Source of the DNA: Myxococcota bacterium
GTDB lineage: Bacteria > Myxococcota_A > UBA796 > UBA2385
Length of the DNA: 64,000 nt
Direction of reading: 5' to 3'
NCBI GenBank assembly: GCA_023150805.1
Contig: JAKLKF010000009.1
Span: 1 to 64,000 of the forward strand
The translations under genes were made by a program, and so were the position numbers. The notes below the pieces were generated by a model. That model ran no database searches. It had not been told where the DNA came from and saw only the letters and a program-made list of their open reading frames with translations. Positions 27,888 through 34,520 of the stretch are shown in pieces; positions within the stretch are counted from its first letter, which is position 1; each line of letters opens with the position of its first letter.

Positions 27888-30107
27888 CTATTCCCCTCGC
27901 TCCGGACGGCCCTGGCCGGGGCGCCCCAGGTGCAGGCCCAGGCCGGCGCCGCTGCTCCACGCCAGGTCGTCGTCCCGCACGCCTCCGCGCCCCTCGACGG
28001 TGACGAAGTAGCGGGGCGTCAGGTACCAACGCAGGTCCGCCCCGGCTCCGGCCAGGCCGGCGACCGGCGAGGGGGCCTGGGGATCGGAGTCCACCTCCAG
28101 CCCGCCGTAGACGAAGAGCGAGGGCCGCAGGCGACTGCGCTCGAAGAAGCCGAAGGCCATGCGCGCGCCCGTGTCGAAGAGCACGCTGCCGTCGGGCCGG
28201 CGCACGTAGCCGGTGCGATCCACGCCCAGCGAGAAGCCGGGGTCCATCACCCAGTCCACCGACAGGCCGGTGCTGGCCAGGGCCAGGTCGCCGGTGACGG
28301 TGGCCTCCCCCTTGGCCGCGGTGCGCCAGGCCGTGCCGTAGGTGAGCACGACGCCGGTCACGGGGCGTCCGCCCTCTCGGCGCAGGACCTGCCAGCCGTC
28401 CGCGGCCGCCCAGCCCCGGACCATCTGGGCGATCATCAGCCCCGGCGTGGGGCCGGTGAAGAGCATGCCACCCCAGCCGTCCAGGTCGTCGCCCATGGCC
28501 CGCTGCACGCTGAAGGCGCCGCCAGTGGCCGCGCCCCAGCCGATCAACATGCCCGCGCCCTTGGCCCACTGGCCGTTGTAGGCCTGGCCTGCGCCGGGCA
28601 GCAGCGCGCTGGCCGAGGCGGCGATGACCGGGCTGTGGCGGAGGTCGAGGCGGGGCTTGGCGGGGGCGCCGACGCCAGCGTCCTGGGGGGCGAGGGGAGG
28701 GGGCAGGGTGGCGGCGGGAGCGGCGCCGGTGGGTCCGGTCGCCGCGTCGGGCGCCGGGGTCGTGGCGGCCTCGGGCGCCGGCGGGGTGGGGGCCGGGTCG
28801 GTCGGGCTGCCGGTGGGCTCCTCGGTGCCCTTGCGGCCGGCCCCCTGCAGGCTGGCGCCGGCGCTCATGATGGCCTGCCCCGTCTTCTCGGCCACGTGGC
28901 CCAGCCACCGGTTGGGCCGGAACTCGTCGGCGGCCTCGGAGGAGGTCGGGGCGCTGGTGGGCGCCTGGACCTGCCGCCAGCCCTCGGGCGGTGGGGGCGG
29001 GTTGGTGGCCGGGGGCGCGCCGGCCGGGACGGCCAGCGGGGACGCGCCGGCCGGGACGGCCACCTGGGCTGGGTCGCTGTCGCTGCCCTTGGCGGCGACG
29101 GCGCGGTCCAGGCTGCGGAAGGCCAGGGCGGGCACGGCGAGATCGGCGCCCTCGGACAGGCCGAAGCGCGCCTCCTGGGTGGACCCGGCCGCCCGGAGCT
29201 GCAGGCGGTACGTGCCGGGGCTGAGCGCGAGCACGCTCTGCACGCCCTCGGCCTTGGAGACCTCGGCGACGGGGACGTCGTCGGGCTCCCGCAGGACGGT
29301 CACGACCCCGGCCATCTCCAGCGGCAGGCGCAGGCGGGCGCTGGCCCGGCGCACGTCGGTGAGGGGCAGGTCACCCTTGCCCTGGATGCGGAAGTCGTAG
29401 GCCGGGTGCTGGGTGCCGCCGGTCGTGGCGCCGGTGCGGGCCACGGTGCGGTCGTAGGCGTAGGCGTAGGCCTCGTCCAGGCTGACCACGCCGTCCCCCG
29501 TGTCGGCGGCTCCGCGCAGCCCCGACAGCAGGTAGTGCGTGAAGAAGCTGCCGCGCAGGCGGTCGCTCTCCTGGGCCGCCTCGTCGGCGCTGGCGGCGGT
29601 GAGCCAGGCCTCTCCCTCGGCGGACAGCGCCGCCTCGTCCATGAAGGGCTCGGCCAGCGCCAGGCCCTTCAGCCGGGTGATCTCGCCCGAGCGGCAGGCG
29701 TCGAGCACGCCCAGGCGCACCTCGGCGGGGATCTGGCGGATCTGGCTGCGCAGGCGGTCGAAGGGCACGTCACCGGTCGACAGGCGCAGCCCTCCCTGGT
29801 CGGCGTGGCCCGAGTAGTAGAACAGGAACAGGTCCTCGCCGTGTCCCGCCGCGACGCCGTGGTGCAGGGCGATGGCCTGGGCGAGCTGCTGATCGGTCGG
29901 GCTCTCCAGCACGGTGACCAGGCCGGGGCTGAAGCCGCCCAGCTCGACCAGCAGGTCGGCCATGCGCCGCGCGTCGTCGTGCGCGTAGAGCAGTGGGGCG
30001 AGGTCGTCGGAGGGCGCGTTGCTGCCGACGATCAGCGCGTGCCGGAGCACCTCGGCGGCGGAGGTGCCCGGCAGGGCCAGGGCGGCGAGCAACAGGGTGG
30101 GGCTCAC
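27888..30107 (-). CDS. exported caspase-fold (peptidase C14) protein with outer-membrane-like C-terminal domain
   Basis: The 739-residue protein starts at GTG 30107, one base after the anti-sigma stop and eight bases after GGAG. A signal peptide covers residues 1-18. Residues 20-240 are a caspase-like domain with the catalytic dyad His101 (LFYYSGHAD) and Cys138 (VLDACRSG). A PEGA/DUF4384-like sandwich follows (about 255-345), then a 130-residue Pro/Ala/Thr linker. The last 260 residues begin with a glycine-rich hydrophobic part (ASALLPGAGQAYNG) and end with alternating strands finishing GLGLHLG, resembling a small beta-barrel. It is the last gene of the sigma/anti-sigma operon and may be its output or its signal processor. 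Confidence 0.88.
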   Translation of the reverse strand: MSPTLLLAALALPGTSAAEVLRHALIVGSNAPSDDLAPLLYAHDDARRMADLLVELGGFSPGLVTVLESPTDQQLAQAIALHHGVAAGHGEDLFLFYYSGHADQGGLRLSTGDVPFDRLRSQIRQIPAEVRLGVLDACRSGEITRLKGLALAEPFMDEAALSAEGEAWLTAASADEAAQESDRLRGSFFTHYLLSGLRGAADTGDGVVSLDEAYAYAYDRTVARTGATTGGTQHPAYDFRIQGKGDLPLTDVRRASARLRLPLEMAGVVTVLREPDDVPVAEVSKAEGVQSVLALSPGTYRLQLRAAGSTQEARFGLSEGADLAVPALAFRSLDRAVAAKGSDSDPAQVAVPAGASPLAVPAGAPPATNPPPPPEGWRQVQAPTSAPTSSEAADEFRPNRWLGHVAEKTGQAIMSAGASLQGAGRKGTEEPTGSPTDPAPTPPAPEAATTPAPDAATGPTGAAPAATLPPPLAPQDAGVGAPAKPRLDLRHSPVIAASASALLPGAGQAYNGQWAKGAGMLIGWGAATGGAFSVQRAMGDDLDGWGGMLFTGPTPGLMIAQMVRGWAAADGWQVLRREGGRPVTGVVLTYGTAWRTAAKGEATVTGDLALASTGLSVDWVMDPGFSLGVDRTGYVRRPDGSVLFDTGARMAFGFFERSRLRPSLFVYGGLEVDSDPQAPSPVAGLAGAGADLRWYLTPRYFVTVEGRGGVRDDDLAWSSGAGLGLHLGRPGQGRPERGE

Positions 30108-30108
30108 G

Positions 30109-30828
30109 TCAACGCTCCTTCTGCAGCGCGATCCGACGCACCTCCACTCCGCTCATTCTACGCCCGCTTGCGGCCGCCTGCGCGGCCTGCCGGTCCAGCG
30201 GCTCGCGGCTGAGGACGACGACCAGCTCCTCGTCGCCGGCCTGGCCGTCCACGGTGAGCGCGAAGGGGGAGAGGGTCGGCTGGTCGGGGTCGAGGGGGAA
30301 GCGGCCGATCAGGCCGTCGGCGTCGCCGACCCAGGCCTCGGCGCCGAGGCCGGCGGGGATGCGGAGCTGGATGCGGTCGCCGGGGCGGATCGCCTCGCCC
30401 GGGTCGAGCACGCCGTGGTCCTCGACCAGCACGACCACCTCTCCGTCGCCCTTGAGCCGCGTGGCGTCGGGGTCGGCGTCGGGGGCGGCGACCCGCACGG
30501 CGACCAGGGCCAGGGCGGCGACCAGGACGGGCACGGGGGCCCAGCGCAGCCAGGCCTGGGCGCGCTCCCACAGGCTGGGGCGGGCCTGGGGCAGGGCCAG
30601 CGGGGGGGCCTTGACCTCGAAGGCACGGCGGAAGGCGAGCTGGGACTGGTGGCGGGACCGGCACTCCTCGCAGCCCTCCAGGTGGGCCTGGGCGGCGCGG
30701 GCCTGCGGGCCGTCCAGCTCGCCGTAGCGGAGCTGGTGGAGGGTGAGGGTGCTGAGGTGGCCGGCCTGGGTGGGGGGAGGGGCCACGCGGGCCTCCGGGG
30801 CGGGGCTTCGGGGGGAGGGCGAGGTCAT
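30109..30828 (-). CDS. zinc-finger anti-sigma factor with DUF4384-like sensor domain
   Basis: The 239-residue protein starts at ATG 30828, overlapping the sigma factor stop as ATGA. Residues 24-60 hold a ZAS motif with H49xxxC53xxC56, which binds zinc and clamps the sigma factor. One membrane helix lies at about 93-116 (APVPVLVAALALVAVRVAA). The extracytoplasmic part (VVVLVEDHGVLDPGEAIRPG, then DRIQLRIPA) resembles DUF4384, a domain often found beside caspase-like proteins. Together with the sigma factor gene it forms a standard membrane-sensing pair; the coupled caspase gene downstream suggests that proteolysis is part of the response. Confidence 0.88.
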   Translation of the reverse strand: MTSPSPRSPAPEARVAPPPTQAGHLSTLTLHQLRYGELDGPQARAAQAHLEGCEECRSRHQSQLAFRRAFEVKAPPLALPQARPSLWERAQAWLRWAPVPVLVAALALVAVRVAAPDADPDATRLKGDGEVVVLVEDHGVLDPGEAIRPGDRIQLRIPAGLGAEAWVGDADGLIGRFPLDPDQPTLSPFALTVDGQAGDEELVVVLSREPLDRQAAQAAASGRRMSGVEVRRIALQKER

Positions 30829-31379
30829 GGCGCCTCCGGGTGGTCGGGCAGGTCGGGGGTGGCGGCCCAGCCCGCCCAGTCGGGGAAGCGGGCCTGGGTC
30901 TGCACGCGGAACTTCGCGAGCCGCTTGCGCACCGCGGCGCCGCTGATGCCCAGCAGCTCGCCCACCTCGTCCTGGGTCATGCCGTCCATGTAGCAGTAGA
31001 CGACGCACTGCTGGGTGCGCTCGTCCCAGCCGTCGAGCAGGCGGGCGACGAGCTGGTGCTGGGCCAGGGTGGTCAACACGCTGTCCCCGACCGCAGGGGG
31101 GGCGTGGTCCTGGATCTCCTCGACGGGGTCCTCGGGGTGCCGCTTGCGGGAGCGGATCACGTTGAGGCACTGGTTGGTCGCGATCCGGTAGAGCCAGGTG
31201 CTGGGCTTGCTGCCGCCCCGGAAGTCGTCGGCGTAGCGGTGGGCCTTCAGGAAGACCTCCTGCATCGCGTCGACCGCGTCGGCCTCGTTGTGCAGCATGG
31301 ACAGGCAGCGGCCGTAGACCATGTCGCCGTACCGGCGGTACAGGGCGGCGACGTCCAGGCGCTCGTCGGCGCTCGCCAT
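30825..31379 (-). CDS. ECF-type RNA polymerase sigma factor
   Basis: The 184-residue protein starts at ATG 31379. Region 2 is clear (VYGRCLSMLHNEADAVDAMQ, then EVFLKAHRYADDF and the Trp/Arg stretch STWLYRIATNQCLNVIRSRK). Region 4 follows (LLDGWDERTQQCVVYCYMDG, then TQDEVGELLGISGAAVRKRL), giving the -35 reading helix. There is no region 1 or 3. The gene is first in a three-gene operon whose members overlap or abut, so sigma, anti-sigma and caspase-domain protein should be co-made. No canonical bipartite ECF promoter is obvious in the 89 bases upstream. Confidence 0.93.
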   Translation of the reverse strand: MASADERLDVAALYRRYGDMVYGRCLSMLHNEADAVDAMQEVFLKAHRYADDFRGGSKPSTWLYRIATNQCLNVIRSRKRHPEDPVEEIQDHAPPAVGDSVLTTLAQHQLVARLLDGWDERTQQCVVYCYMDGMTQDEVGELLGISGAAVRKRLAKFRVQTQARFPDWAGWAATPDLPDHPEAP

Positions 31380-31468
31380 GCTTCGGTCCCGGGCGGAGGT
31401 GGGCCGGGGCGGAGCTATCGCGTCCGACCGCCCTTGGGTGAGGGGCAGGGCCCCGGCCGCCGTCCGCA

Positions 31469-32002
31469 TCAGCCGCAGGCCCCGCTGGTGCCGCCGCCGT
31501 CGGTGCCGCCGCCGTCGCTGCTGCCGTCGGTGCCGCCGCCGTCGCTGCTGCCGTCGGTGCCGCCGCCGTTGGTGCTGCCGTCGAGGACGAGGAAGGCGTC
31601 GTCGACCCAGATGGCCGTGCCGTCGTCCAGCTCGACCAGCAGGTCGACCGGCCCGGCCGGGGCGTCGTCGTCGACGGCCAGGGTGATGAGCAGCTCGTCC
31701 TGGCGCGCCTGCATCGTGCAGGGGGTGATGGGGCCGAAGAACTCCACCGCGGCGACCGTGCTCCAGTCGAAGGGCTGGTCGGACTGCAGGCCGGCGATCA
31801 GGTCCTCGCCGGGGGCGCCGGCGTCGGGGTCCAGCCACAGGCGGGCCTTCGGCTCCTCCGGCGCGCCGGTGTCGTCCGGGTCGGGGCGCCCGCTGTCGTC
31901 GTCGGCCCAGAAGTCGTCGCCGGGGCAGTCGTTGTCGTGGATGACACAGGCGCCCAGGGCGGGCAGCAGGCTGAAGGCGAGCAGGGGGAGGGGGCGGGTC
32001 AT
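31469..32002 (-). CDS. small Asp/Gly-rich lipoprotein with C-terminal repeats
   Basis: The 177-residue protein starts at ATG 32002, preceded by GGAGA. A lipoprotein signal ends in LLPALGAC. Residues 25-50 are very acidic (DDFWADDDSGRPDPDDTG). A domain of about 90 residues follows, with FFGPITPCTMQ and LLVELDDGTAIWVDD. The end is a tandem array of GGGTDGSSD units encoded by a 27-bp repeat, closing with CG. No family is recognised. It lies 89 bases upstream of the sigma factor on the same strand and could be the first gene of that operon. Confidence 0.78.
   Translation of the reverse strand: MTRPLPLLAFSLLPALGACVIHDNDCPGDDFWADDDSGRPDPDDTGAPEEPKARLWLDPDAGAPGEDLIAGLQSDQPFDWSTVAAVEFFGPITPCTMQARQDELLITLAVDDDAPAGPVDLLVELDDGTAIWVDDAFLVLDGSTNGGGTDGSSDGGGTDGSSDGGGTDGGGTSGACG
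31498..31578. repeat. 27-bp tandem repeat coding the GGGTDGSSD array
   Basis: Three head-to-tail copies (31498-31524, 31525-31551, 31552-31578) lie inside the lipoprotein gene; the first two are identical and the third differs near its end. The unit is nine codons, so copy-number change would keep the frame. Confidence 0.85.
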
Positions 32003-32235
32003 GGAGGTCTCCTCGAGTGCGGGGGCGAGGGGGGCCCTCGCCGTGCTCGCCCGGGGCACCCTCGCCACCGGGTCGCCTGCTTGGACCCCGGCCCGGCGGG
32101 CGGGCGCTACCGGCGCGGGAAAAAACTCCTCGCCGCCCCCGGTGACCCGCGGGGGCCGCTGCATTACCGTGCTGCCTCCCTCCCCACGCTCCTCCCCCGG
32201 ACGCGGCGCGGATCGCCGCGCGCAGGACCTCGCGG

Positions 32236-33117
32236 ATGCCCGAGATCGACAAGGCCTACAAGAACCTGGACTTCCTCACCAGCCCCGCGGCGCGGACCAT
32301 CCGCATGCTGTGCGAGTACGAAGAGCCGCGGCAGCGCTTCCGCGACCAGAAGGTGCACGACACCCTGGTCTTCTACGGGTCGGCGCGCGCCGTGACCCGC
32401 GAGCAGGCGGTGGGCGAGCTGTCCCGGGCCGAGCTGGAGGCGCGCACGGCGGCGGACGACCAGGAGAAGCGCCGCCTGGAGCACCAGGTGACCCTGGCGC
32501 AGCGCCGGGTGCGCCTGTCTCGCTACTACGAGGACGCCCGCGAGCTGGCGCGGCGCATCACCGACTGGAGCATGGCCCAGAAGAAGGGGCGCTACCTGGT
32601 GTGCACCGGCGGCGGGCCCGGCATCATGGAGGCGGCCAACCGCGGGGCGGCCGACGTGCCGGGCGGGCGCAGCCTGGGCCTGGGCATCTCCCTGCCCTTC
32701 GAGGAGAAGCTCAACCCCTACGTCACGCCGGAGCTGGGCTTCGAGTTCCACTACTTCTTCATGCGCAAGTACTGGTTCGCCTACCTGGCCAAGTCGCTGG
32801 TCATCTTCCCCGGCGGCTTCGGCACCATGGACGAGCTGTTCGAGATGCTGACCCTGCGGCAGACGGGCAAGATCAAGAAGCCCCTGCCGACGCTGCTCTA
32901 CGGCGCCGACTACTGGCGGCAGATCACCGACATCCAGACCATGGTCGACTGGGGCACCATCTCCGAGCGCGACCTGCTGCTCTTCCACCGCAGTGACAGC
33001 GTGGACGACGCCTTCGACTTCCTCGTCGCCTCGCTGGAGCAGGTGGAGCGCGAGCGCAACGGCATGGCCGAGGACCTCCAGCCGCCCGAGCGGCGCGACC
33101 AGTTCAAGGAGGACTGA
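32236..33117 (+). CDS. LOG-family (cytokinin riboside monophosphate phosphoribohydrolase-like) protein
   Basis: The 293-residue protein starts at ATG 32236. The Rossmann-like core has the family's two signatures, GGGPGIMEAANRGA and PGGFGTMDE, plus FYGSAR near the N-terminus. It also has an inserted charged helix (RTAADDQEKRRLEHQVTLAQ) typical of longer LOG members. Such proteins cut the ribose bond of nucleoside 5'-monophosphates; the older label lysine decarboxylase is misleading. Two bases separate it from a ferredoxin gene, which is followed by an adenosine-deaminase-like gene, suggesting a nucleotide salvage or detoxification unit. Confidence 0.9.
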   Translation: MPEIDKAYKNLDFLTSPAARTIRMLCEYEEPRQRFRDQKVHDTLVFYGSARAVTREQAVGELSRAELEARTAADDQEKRRLEHQVTLAQRRVRLSRYYEDARELARRITDWSMAQKKGRYLVCTGGGPGIMEAANRGAADVPGGRSLGLGISLPFEEKLNPYVTPELGFEFHYFFMRKYWFAYLAKSLVIFPGGFGTMDELFEMLTLRQTGKIKKPLPTLLYGADYWRQITDIQTMVDWGTISERDLLLFHRSDSVDDAFDFLVASLEQVERERNGMAEDLQPPERRDQFKED

Positions 33118-33118
33118 G

Positions 33119-33517
33119 GTGACCCCCTTCGGTATCCGCAAGCGGCTCAAGGGCCTGGTCGGCCAGGGGCAGGCGCCCCAGGTCACGCGCTTCCCCGTCA
33201 CCTTCGTCCTGCCCGACGGCACCGAGCAGGTGGTGCAGACCGAGGCCCGCTACACGCTGGCCATGGCCAGCCAGTTCCTGCCCAGCCCCATCGCGACGGG
33301 CTGCCCCGACGGCCAGTGCGGGCAGTGCGTGGTGGAGGTGCTGGACGCCTCGGGCCTGGCGGCCCCGTCGGACAGCGAGCGCAAGATCATGGACAAGTGG
33401 CACAAGGTGCCCGATCCCAAGCGGCGCCTGGCCTGCCACGCGCGGGTCGAGGGCCCGGGCGCCCGGGTCAAGGTCTTCTCGCTCTTCGACTACAACAGCG
33501 TGCGCGGGACGGAGTGA
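33119..33517 (+). CDS. [2Fe-2S] ferredoxin
   Basis: The 132-residue protein starts at GTG 33119, directly after the LOG stop. It has a Cx4Cx2C cluster (GCPDGQCGQCVVEV) and a later Cys (RRLACHAR), which together bind a plant-type [2Fe-2S] centre. A basic N-terminal helix (IRKRLKGLVG) precedes the fold. The redox partner is not encoded next to it. The tight spacing with the LOG and deaminase genes suggests that one of the pathway steps needs electrons. Confidence 0.88.
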   Translation: MTPFGIRKRLKGLVGQGQAPQVTRFPVTFVLPDGTEQVVQTEARYTLAMASQFLPSPIATGCPDGQCGQCVVEVLDASGLAAPSDSERKIMDKWHKVPDPKRRLACHARVEGPGARVKVFSLFDYNSVRGTE

Positions 33518-33521
33518 GGCC

Positions 33522-34520
33522 ATGGTCGACCAGCCGCCCCTCTGCGATCTGCACATCCACGTCGGCTCCTCGGTGGCGCCGCACATCATGTGGTCCATCG
33601 CCCACCAGCAGGGCTTCAAGCTGCCGGTCAAGGACTACTGGGAGTTCGTCGACCTGATCACGGTCGATCCCCGCCGCGACCGCAGCCTGGACGACTACCT
33701 GCGGATCCTGCACGAGTGGACGGAGCGCATCCAGAGCAGCCCCGCCGCCATCGAGCGCAGCGTCTACGAGATCATCGGCAAGGAGTACCGCAGCAGCCGG
33801 GTCGAGCGGATCGAGCTTCGCTTCAACCCGATGAAGCGCAACGAGGGCGGTGCCCGCGACCTGGACCACATCATCCACGCCGCGATCCGCGGGATGGACC
33901 GCGCCTGCCTGGAGTACGGCGTGCAGGCGGGCCTGCTGTTCTGCCTGGCCCGGGAGTTCGACGCCGAGCTCAACGAGATCCTGGTCGACAAGGCGATCAT
34001 GTACCAGCCGCGCGGCGTGGTCGGCATCGACCTGGCGGGGACCGAGCGCAACCCGATGGAGCTGACCGAGAGCGTGGGTCGCTACGCCCGCCTGTTCGCG
34101 CGGGCGCGGGACGCGGGCCTGGGCACCACGGTGCACACCGGCGAGACGGTGGCGACCTCGGGCGAGGGGGTGATCGCGGTGCTCGACCAGCTCAAGCCGG
34201 ACCGCATCGGCCACGGCATCCGCGCGGCCTACAACGACGAGGCGCTGGCGCGGCTGGTCGACACGGGCACGGTGCTGGAGATCTGCCCGACCAGCAACCT
34301 GCACACCCGCGCGGTGCGCCACCTCGAGGAGTTCCGCTACATCCTGGGGGCCTTCGTGGACCGCGGCGTGCGCTTCACCGTCAACACCGACGGCACCTAC
34401 CTGTGCTCGACCAGCCTGCAGCGGGAGTACAACCTGCTGCGCGACGCGGAGATCCTGTCGGGCGAGGAGCTGGAGCGCGCGCGGGTGCTGGCCTTCGAGG
34501 CCAGCTTCCTGGCGCGCTGA
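33522..34520 (+). CDS. adenosine deaminase family protein
   Basis: The 332-residue protein starts at ATG 33522, four bases after the ferredoxin stop and behind GGAG. Metal and catalytic motifs appear in order: DLHIHVGSS (HxH), GIDLAG, VHTGE (H and catalytic E), IGHGI (H), CPTSN, and VNTDG. In classical enzymes the last motif is TDDP, where the first Asp binds zinc and the next shapes the pocket; here the second Asp is Gly, so substrate preference may differ (for example adenine, AMP or a modified nucleoside). It is the third gene of the LOG-ferredoxin-deaminase operon. Confidence 0.88.
   Translation: MVDQPPLCDLHIHVGSSVAPHIMWSIAHQQGFKLPVKDYWEFVDLITVDPRRDRSLDDYLRILHEWTERIQSSPAAIERSVYEIIGKEYRSSRVERIELRFNPMKRNEGGARDLDHIIHAAIRGMDRACLEYGVQAGLLFCLAREFDAELNEILVDKAIMYQPRGVVGIDLAGTERNPMELTESVGRYARLFARARDAGLGTTVHTGETVATSGEGVIAVLDQLKPDRIGHGIRAAYNDEALARLVDTGTVLEICPTSNLHTRAVRHLEEFRYILGAFVDRGVRFTVNTDGTYLCSTSLQREYNLLRDAEILSGEELERARVLAFEASFLAR

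Follow-up and report, generated by a model that had tools for sequence, protein, structure and literature searches.

In this work we analyzed a three-gene operon on the minus strand of a 64,000-nucleotide stretch of a Myxococcota genome (assembly GCA_023150805.1, contig JAKLKF010000009.1, positions 1 to 64,000 of the forward strand; the whole stretch is referred to here as the window). The operon encodes a sigma factor of the extracytoplasmic function (ECF) type, a membrane anti-sigma factor and an exported caspase that ends in a predicted outer-membrane (OM) beta-barrel. The reading that we favor, and consider rather probable, is that of a self-contained envelope signaling cassette in which the caspase, after cleaving itself, cleaves the anti-sigma factor and thereby frees the sigma factor for transcription of its own operon and of an OM barrel gene. 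The linkage of the genes, their domain make-up, three conserved sites formed by a basic residue followed by glycine ([KR]G) and a conserved promoter are supported by the sequence. A more general proposal, which we hold to be evenly balanced, is that a bacterial caspase with its own barrel serves as a dedicated site-1 protease, which would be activated and released at two [KR]G sites and would free an ECF sigma factor by a matching cut in the anti-sigma factor; this arrangement would be widespread among Myxococcota and would also occur in Fibrobacterota-like lineages.

Linkage and domain make-up of the operon

The three genes lie on the minus strand, at the place and in the order (sigma, anti-sigma, caspase) given in the initial annotation of the window, and they overlap or abut as described there: the sigma stop codon and the anti-sigma start codon share the sequence ATGA, and a single base separates the anti-sigma stop codon from the GTG start codon of the caspase gene. 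Seed loci (L005-L010) were obtained by scanning a genome collection, Fibrobacteres and Chitinivibrionales records included, for likeness to the window caspase; all of them carry the genes in the same order, L009 coming from Fibrobacteres and L010 from Chitinivibrionales. Because these loci had been picked by similarity to the window caspase, two broader surveys were made. In the first, the neighborhoods of every PF00656 match in 20 relative genomes were read; strong members of the caspase clade adjoin a sigma/anti-sigma pair or sit at a contig edge, and no such pair adjoins the caspases from other clades. For the second, 58 genomes sampled evenly across the phylum were searched with a profile, and 23 of them contain the clade. 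With the addition of the seed loci and of a few others to which an anti-sigma search had led, the two surveys gave 75 clade caspases (hidden Markov model E<1e-15). The annotation had reckoned with the possibility that caspase homologues are rarely next to a sigma pair; instead, 74 of the 75 have adjoining sigma and anti-sigma genes or lie at a contig edge, and the sole exception (L215), which has no pair and is away from a contig edge, is a borderline caspase (E 5e-16). The gene order is kept across Myxococcota, as well as in the Fibrobacteres and Chitinivibrionales records.

Supporting this linkage, the sigma, anti-sigma and caspase trees correlate over 49 loci (r 0.73, 0.83 and 0.70, versus null maxima of 0.18-0.24). 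The association of the caspase with the sigma/anti-sigma pair is not due to chance. A fortuitous or historical neighborhood lacking a functional link, for which no supporting point was found, is refuted by the two surveys and is also at odds with the cross-phylum conservation and the correlated trees; we regard it as hardly conceivable.

In several loci the order differs, with the caspase gene followed by another gene and then by sigma and anti-sigma. In L069, L077, L081, L145 and L194 the caspase gene comes first and the pair lies downstream, and in L069, L081 and L145 the gene in between encodes a cysteine-containing exported (lipo)protein. Locus L062 (3734-7128), on the contig that also carries L008, has one sigma/anti-sigma pair followed by two tandem caspases, the first of which is short and devoid of the barrel part. 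Relatives were also looked for on plasmids and none was found.

The sigma protein has the make-up expected for the ECF type, that is, a short protein with only regions 2 and 4 of sigma-70: Sigma70_r2 is found at residues 13-80 and Sigma70_r4 at residues 115-155, both above the curated Pfam cut-offs, and TIGR02937 is matched with 85.4 bits against a cut-off of 42.9. Its neighbor had been annotated as a membrane zinc-binding anti-sigma (ZAS) factor with a DUF4384-like outer domain, and the first part of this assignment is supported by the sequence: zf-HC2 reaches 25.6 bits against a curated Pfam cut-off of 22.2, the HxxxCxxC motif (H49, C53, C56) sits among the helices of the N-terminal domain, a single predicted transmembrane (TM) helix comes next, and the gene adjoins that of the sigma factor. 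As for the outer domain, the window protein stays below the cut-off for DUF4384 (PF14326; 13 bits against 27), and three out of seven close family members do match it, the best with 3.4e-5. The AlphaFold2 model shows helices, a TM helix at about 98-111 and an outer beta-domain from residue 132, its top match in Foldseek being the ChrR anti-sigma factor (E 1.2e-3); between helix and beta-domain, residues 113-128 have a predicted local distance difference test score (pLDDT) below 50 and are predicted to be disordered. A second strongly conserved basic residue (K in 39 and R in 9 of 50 sequences) is K237 (30109-30120), at the C-terminal end, where the outer domain has its last strand.

The caspase matches PF00656 with 50.2 bits against a cut-off of 21.4, and the His101/Cys138 dyad described for it is intact in the window and in each of the 54 aligned caspases. 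Foldseek searches with its model retrieve MALT1, caspases and metacaspase 9, and also OM barrels (OprF, NspA, OmpA, OmpX, Ail). Beyond the catalytic domain, the AlphaFold2 model shows a beta-sandwich, then a linker that is long and disordered, a hairpin of helices and, at residues 585-726, eight antiparallel strands, in agreement with the barrel-like end that had been annotated. The N-terminus is hydrophobic and ends in SAA. Given the single TM helix of the anti-sigma factor, and the hydrophobic N-terminus and barrel-like C-terminal strands of the caspase, the models would place the catalytic domain and the outer domain of the anti-sigma factor together in the periplasm. Caspase residue D45 (D in 50 sequences, E in 4) aligns with the Asp of the metacaspase NDA motif and D136 (54/54) precedes the catalytic Cys; by the mapping from TbMC2 and YCA1, both may belong to an acidic S1 pocket for a basic P1 residue, as in non-animal members of the family. 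In the NCBIfam model of EACC1-associated caspases (NF047832), the window caspase scores 82.9 bits, below the cut-off of 140.

A basic-glycine motif common to the caspase and the anti-sigma factor

Conservation was computed for each column over 52 anti-sigma factors and 54 caspases. No column of the anti-sigma factor carries more information than K126 (K in 45 and R in 7 sequences, hence basic in all 52), which ranks above the zinc ligands, and G127 is kept in 50. Two similar dipeptides occur in the caspase: K147-G148, nine residues past the catalytic Cys, and K340-G341, basic in 54/54, which is the lone conservation peak within an otherwise variable C-terminal linker. The pLDDT falls below 50 at residues 140-145 and 152-163, which flank K147, and at 334-365 around K340; the K147 loop is itself of low confidence, and the sites in the anti-sigma factor and in the linker are within predicted disorder. 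In animal caspases the activation cut falls in the loop just past the catalytic Cys. Non-animal C14 peptidases are reported to prefer Arg or Lys at P1 (PMC5756287), and the orthocaspase MaOC1 cleaves after basic clusters (PMC7935541). Taken together, the [KR]G sites suggest matching cut sites for the caspase in the caspase itself and in the anti-sigma factor.

For comparison we used anti-sigma-like proteins near which no caspase was detected. Nine membrane anti-sigma factors had been found beside a sigma gene by zinc-domain matches only, and in eight of them the stretch up to 40 residues from the TM helix contains no [KR]G; the ninth (L230) has a KG and, because it resembles the type with the order caspase, X, sigma, anti-sigma, was not counted as caspase-less. 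Nor is the site present in L142 and L148, two DUF4384-like proteins that have no caspase, so that all ten such proteins lack it. From composition, one [KR]G per 40 residues is expected about 31% of the time; the argument rests, therefore, on the aligned and near-invariant column and not on the mere presence of the dipeptide. Every anti-sigma factor with Arg at this site is paired with a caspase that has Arg at the linker site (7/7), a correspondence that we leave out of the main evidence, phylogeny being a confounder.

These results bear on two other explanations. If the caspase were an output of the circuit, the pair would sense stress in the ordinary manner, with a DegS-type site-1 protease followed by RseP, and would induce the caspase for envelope processing or killing. 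The caspase gene is the last of the operon and would be under an autoregulated promoter, many ECF operons carry effectors, and a role in autolysis was proposed for Myxococcus (PMC3501461), all of which agree with an output; even so, such a scheme leaves unexplained that the basic-glycine site is the most conserved column of the anti-sigma factor, that it is absent from the ten proteins without a detected caspase, and that it resembles the two sites of the caspase itself. We consider it unlikely, although deserving attention. It could also be that the caspase binds and does not cut, the [KR]G dipeptides being docking or structural elements and the caspase shielding or propping the anti-sigma factor; conservation of a motif alone is no proof of cleavage, and partner domains could fill the active site as a pseudo-substrate. 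An intact catalytic dyad in 54 out of 54 caspases argues against this, as does the location of the dipeptide, in two of the three places, within a predicted disordered and otherwise variable stretch, and we find this explanation quite improbable. Returning to cleavage of the anti-sigma factor by the caspase, the initial annotation proposed that caspase proteolysis either makes or answers the envelope signal; the common motif of the putative cut sites favors the former.

In most of the members read from a second clade of triad caspases (L072, L075, L079, L084, L085, L092, L143, L144, L147), a [KR]G is found about 25 residues past the Cys. Near the membrane, the anti-sigma factors of this clade carry RG in five cases, KG in two and only VKATG in L079.

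Lipoprotein, promoter and proposed mechanism

The unit extends beyond the three genes, given that a lipoprotein gene and an ECF-type promoter upstream of sigma also belong to it (Table 1); both of these, as well as the common [KR]G motif, were overlooked in the initial annotation. The lipoprotein gene is upstream of sigma in L005-L008, L057 and L195, and downstream of the caspase gene in L089 and L190. Since it occurs in either position, it is kept in the cassette despite its shifting place, and the lipoprotein is a conserved fourth component with a possible sensor role. Short tandem repeats at 31467-31598 encode its Gly/Ser/Asp/Thr-rich tail.

The promoter motif GGTARCG-N16-GKGTC was derived from the window, L005, L007 and L008, where its distance to the downstream lipoprotein gene is 84-109 bp, and scores 36 versus a maximum of 33 among 60 shuffles. 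Held-out loci match it at 12 of 12 positions, upstream of the lipoprotein gene in L057 and L195 and upstream of sigma, there the first gene, in L089 and L190. Among the loci inspected, the site was not found in L184, and L055 is cut by a contig end. A search for shared 5+4-mers directly upstream of sigma gave nothing useful, the promoter being upstream of the lipoprotein gene in most loci. The next upstream gene, at 32236, is a divergent gene of the LOG family in the window and in L005-L008, which indicates the same chromosomal locus. On the plus strand of the window, positions 32236-34520 hold this LOG-family (Lysine_decarbox) gene, a gene with a 2Fe-2S ferredoxin domain and a gene of the adenosine deaminase family.

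Table 1. Features of the cassette, in window coordinates
Feature	Position	Strand	Details
Sigma-anti-sigma-caspase three-gene operon	27888-31379	minus	
ECF sigma factor (P0001)	30825..31379	minus	184 aa; Sigma70_r2 3e-18, Sigma70_r4 2.8e-8
Membrane anti-sigma factor (P0002): zinc domain, one TM helix, outer beta-domain	30109..30828	minus	239 aa
Zinc motif H49-x3-C53-x2-C56 of the anti-sigma factor	30661..30684	minus	sequence
Putative caspase cut site R124-L-K126/G127, juxtamembrane linker of the anti-sigma factor	30448..30459	minus	conservation, predicted disorder
Exported caspase (P0003)	27888..30107	minus	739 aa, GTG start; Peptidase_C14 3.6e-13; AlphaFold2, Foldseek
Catalytic His101	29805..29807	minus	conserved 54/54
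Catalytic Cys138	29694..29696	minus	conserved 54/54
Putative self-cut site K147/G148, loop after Cys138	29664..29669	minus	K51/R3; G 54/54
Putative release site K340/G341, between periplasmic domains and anchor	29085..29090	minus	K28/R26; G 52/54
Predicted eight-stranded OM beta-barrel, residues 585-726	27930..28355	minus	AlphaFold2; Foldseek
Lipoprotein (lipobox ..GACVIHD), acidic linker, Gly/Ser/Asp-rich tail	31469..32002	minus	ATG at 32002, stop 31469
ECF-type promoter GGTAGCG-N16-GGGTC	32084..32111	minus	109 bp upstream of lipoprotein start

In the window genome, an intergenic copy of the promoter (L015, G000:C74:5199-5226, minus strand) lies directly upstream of a gene for an exported barrel-like protein. 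Among the orthologues of this gene (L219-L225), those of four out of six other genomes match 12, 11, 11 and 11 of the 12 positions at about the same distance; one of the remaining two has 10 of 12 and the other has no site at the same spacing. With a spacer longer by one base, the pattern had no match in seven relatives, which indicates only that this longer spacing is not in use. As background, at least 11 of 12 matches occur in 1.1% of 410-bp windows. The barrel-like gene is on these grounds a candidate member of the regulon. A further exact match (L022, G000:C349:40496-40523, minus strand) is located 97 nt upstream of a gene for an exported Pro/Ala-rich protein.

In the mechanism that we propose, the membrane anti-sigma factor would use its N-terminal domain to retain the sigma factor in the cytoplasm, and the caspase would be exported and anchored through its C-terminal OM barrel, with the catalytic domain in the periplasm beside the outer domain of the anti-sigma factor. 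An envelope signal, perhaps received through the lipoprotein or through failed assembly of the caspase's own barrel, would cause the caspase to cut itself after K147, in the loop beside the active site, and after K340, in the linker, and these self-cuts would activate the catalytic part and free it from its anchor. The freed caspase would then make the site-1 cut after K126 of the anti-sigma factor, just outside the membrane, leaving a site-2 membrane protease, along with proteases of the cytoplasm, to complete the release, as for RseA. Once free, the sigma factor would transcribe its own operon from GGTARCG-N16-GKGTC, together with at least one OM barrel gene. We infer the topology, each cut and the succession of events, as well as the signal and the site-2 step.

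Several observations weigh against this mechanism. The conservation of Lys-Gly could reflect binding or structure rather than cleavage, the caspase-less proteins used for comparison are few and come from the same genomes, and the second clade of triad caspases has no KG at Cys+9. Only 19 of the 52 members of the anti-sigma family have the HxxxCxxC zinc motif, and the whole-chain model of the caspase is of modest confidence (mean pLDDT 63). Regarding the promoter, L006 has only a weak site, and throughout the window genome the pattern has 14 matches versus 20 for a reversed-pattern control, that is, no enrichment, for which reason only intergenic or cross-species-conserved matches were used.

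Relation to known systems

The initial annotation considered the coupling of the caspase to the sigma/anti-sigma pair a candidate for an undescribed system. The coupling is real, as gene order and tree correlation indicate, but "undescribed" is too strong, because the pairing of sigma factors with metacaspases was briefly reported in 2012 (Asplund-Samuelsson et al., PMC3501461). In that work a sigma factor was found in the predicted operon of four of the five metacaspases of Myxococcus xanthus, and sigma-70/metacaspase operons were also found in Anaeromyxobacter, Haliangium, Sorangium, Ralstonia and Fibrobacter. These operons, like the one described here, pair a sigma gene with a metacaspase gene; they are treated in one paragraph that suggests a role in autolysis and contains no anti-sigma factor, cut site, promoter, lipoprotein or mechanism. 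Searches of open-access full texts for anti-sigma together with metacaspase, orthocaspase or DUF4384 retrieved no description of the module, and none of the anti-sigma partner, the lipoprotein, the promoter, the barrel or the cut sites was found in the open-access literature.

We class the cassette as a variant of the protease-controlled sigma/anti-sigma systems. In the SigmaE-RseA-DegS-RseP system, an anti-sigma factor with one TM helix receives its periplasmic site-1 cut from DegS, and the regulon includes outer-membrane proteins. With this system, which is also discussed in PMC10028731, the cassette shares the one-TM anti-sigma factor, a predicted periplasmic site-1 cut and OM proteins in the presumed regulon; the site-1 protease would, in contrast, be an operon-encoded cysteine caspase with a barrel and not a PDZ serine protease. 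No PDZ serine protease such as DegS is encoded in the cassette, the caspase being the sole protease of the operon; the rest of the genome was not searched for DegS homologues.

Other systems share fewer features. In ECF54 (PMC8999054), an ECF sigma factor is also linked by gene context to proteases of the caspase clan (CHAT/subtilase neighbors); in contrast to our case, this group is described as devoid of an anti-sigma factor. The orthocaspase MaOC1 and its antitoxin (PMC7935541, PMC5756287) likewise combine an autoprocessing bacterial caspase homologue, a substrate encoded by a neighboring gene and a basic P1 residue. Its partner is, however, a toxin-antitoxin, with no sigma factor involved.

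Most bacterial caspase homologues have no known function and tend to be discussed as death enzymes. Should the proposed mechanism be correct, a large clade of them would be transcription switches with a named substrate and cut site, and a caspase signaling route would serve gene control in Myxococcota, a group known for development and programmed lysis.

The closest mechanistic precedent is Craspase/DiCASP, the Csx29-Csx30-CASP-sigma module of type III-E CRISPR (PMC10028731), in which Csx29, of the caspase family, cuts the inhibitor Csx30 in a flexible loop and relieves an ECF-type sigma factor, much as the cut proposed here would do. This precedent, along with other caspase defense systems and a weak match to a caspase in PADLOC, could speak for a system of defense or suicide, with the caspase switched on by a phage or damage signal. 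Nevertheless, PADLOC gave nothing beyond that weak, generic match, and none for the sigma or the anti-sigma factor, for which reason defense was rejected as the main model; the exported and membrane parts, the lipoprotein partner, the vertical synteny with the LOG-family gene and the barrel target point to the envelope. The three operon proteins show no Pfam match to Cas7-11, TPR-CHAT or Csx30 domains that would identify type III-E, and the direct repeats at 18000-42000 include no CRISPR-like array. A defense role is, in our judgment, very improbable. The envelope cassette differs from DiCASP, where the protease is a TPR-CHAT protein activated by RNA through Cas7-11 and the substrate is Csx30, in that its caspase is exported and has a predicted OM barrel, and its one-TM zinc anti-sigma factor carries an outer beta-domain. 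If our proposal is right, the logic of Csx29, Csx30 and CASP-sigma, by which a caspase-family protease frees an ECF sigma factor, would also operate without CRISPR, in the envelope.

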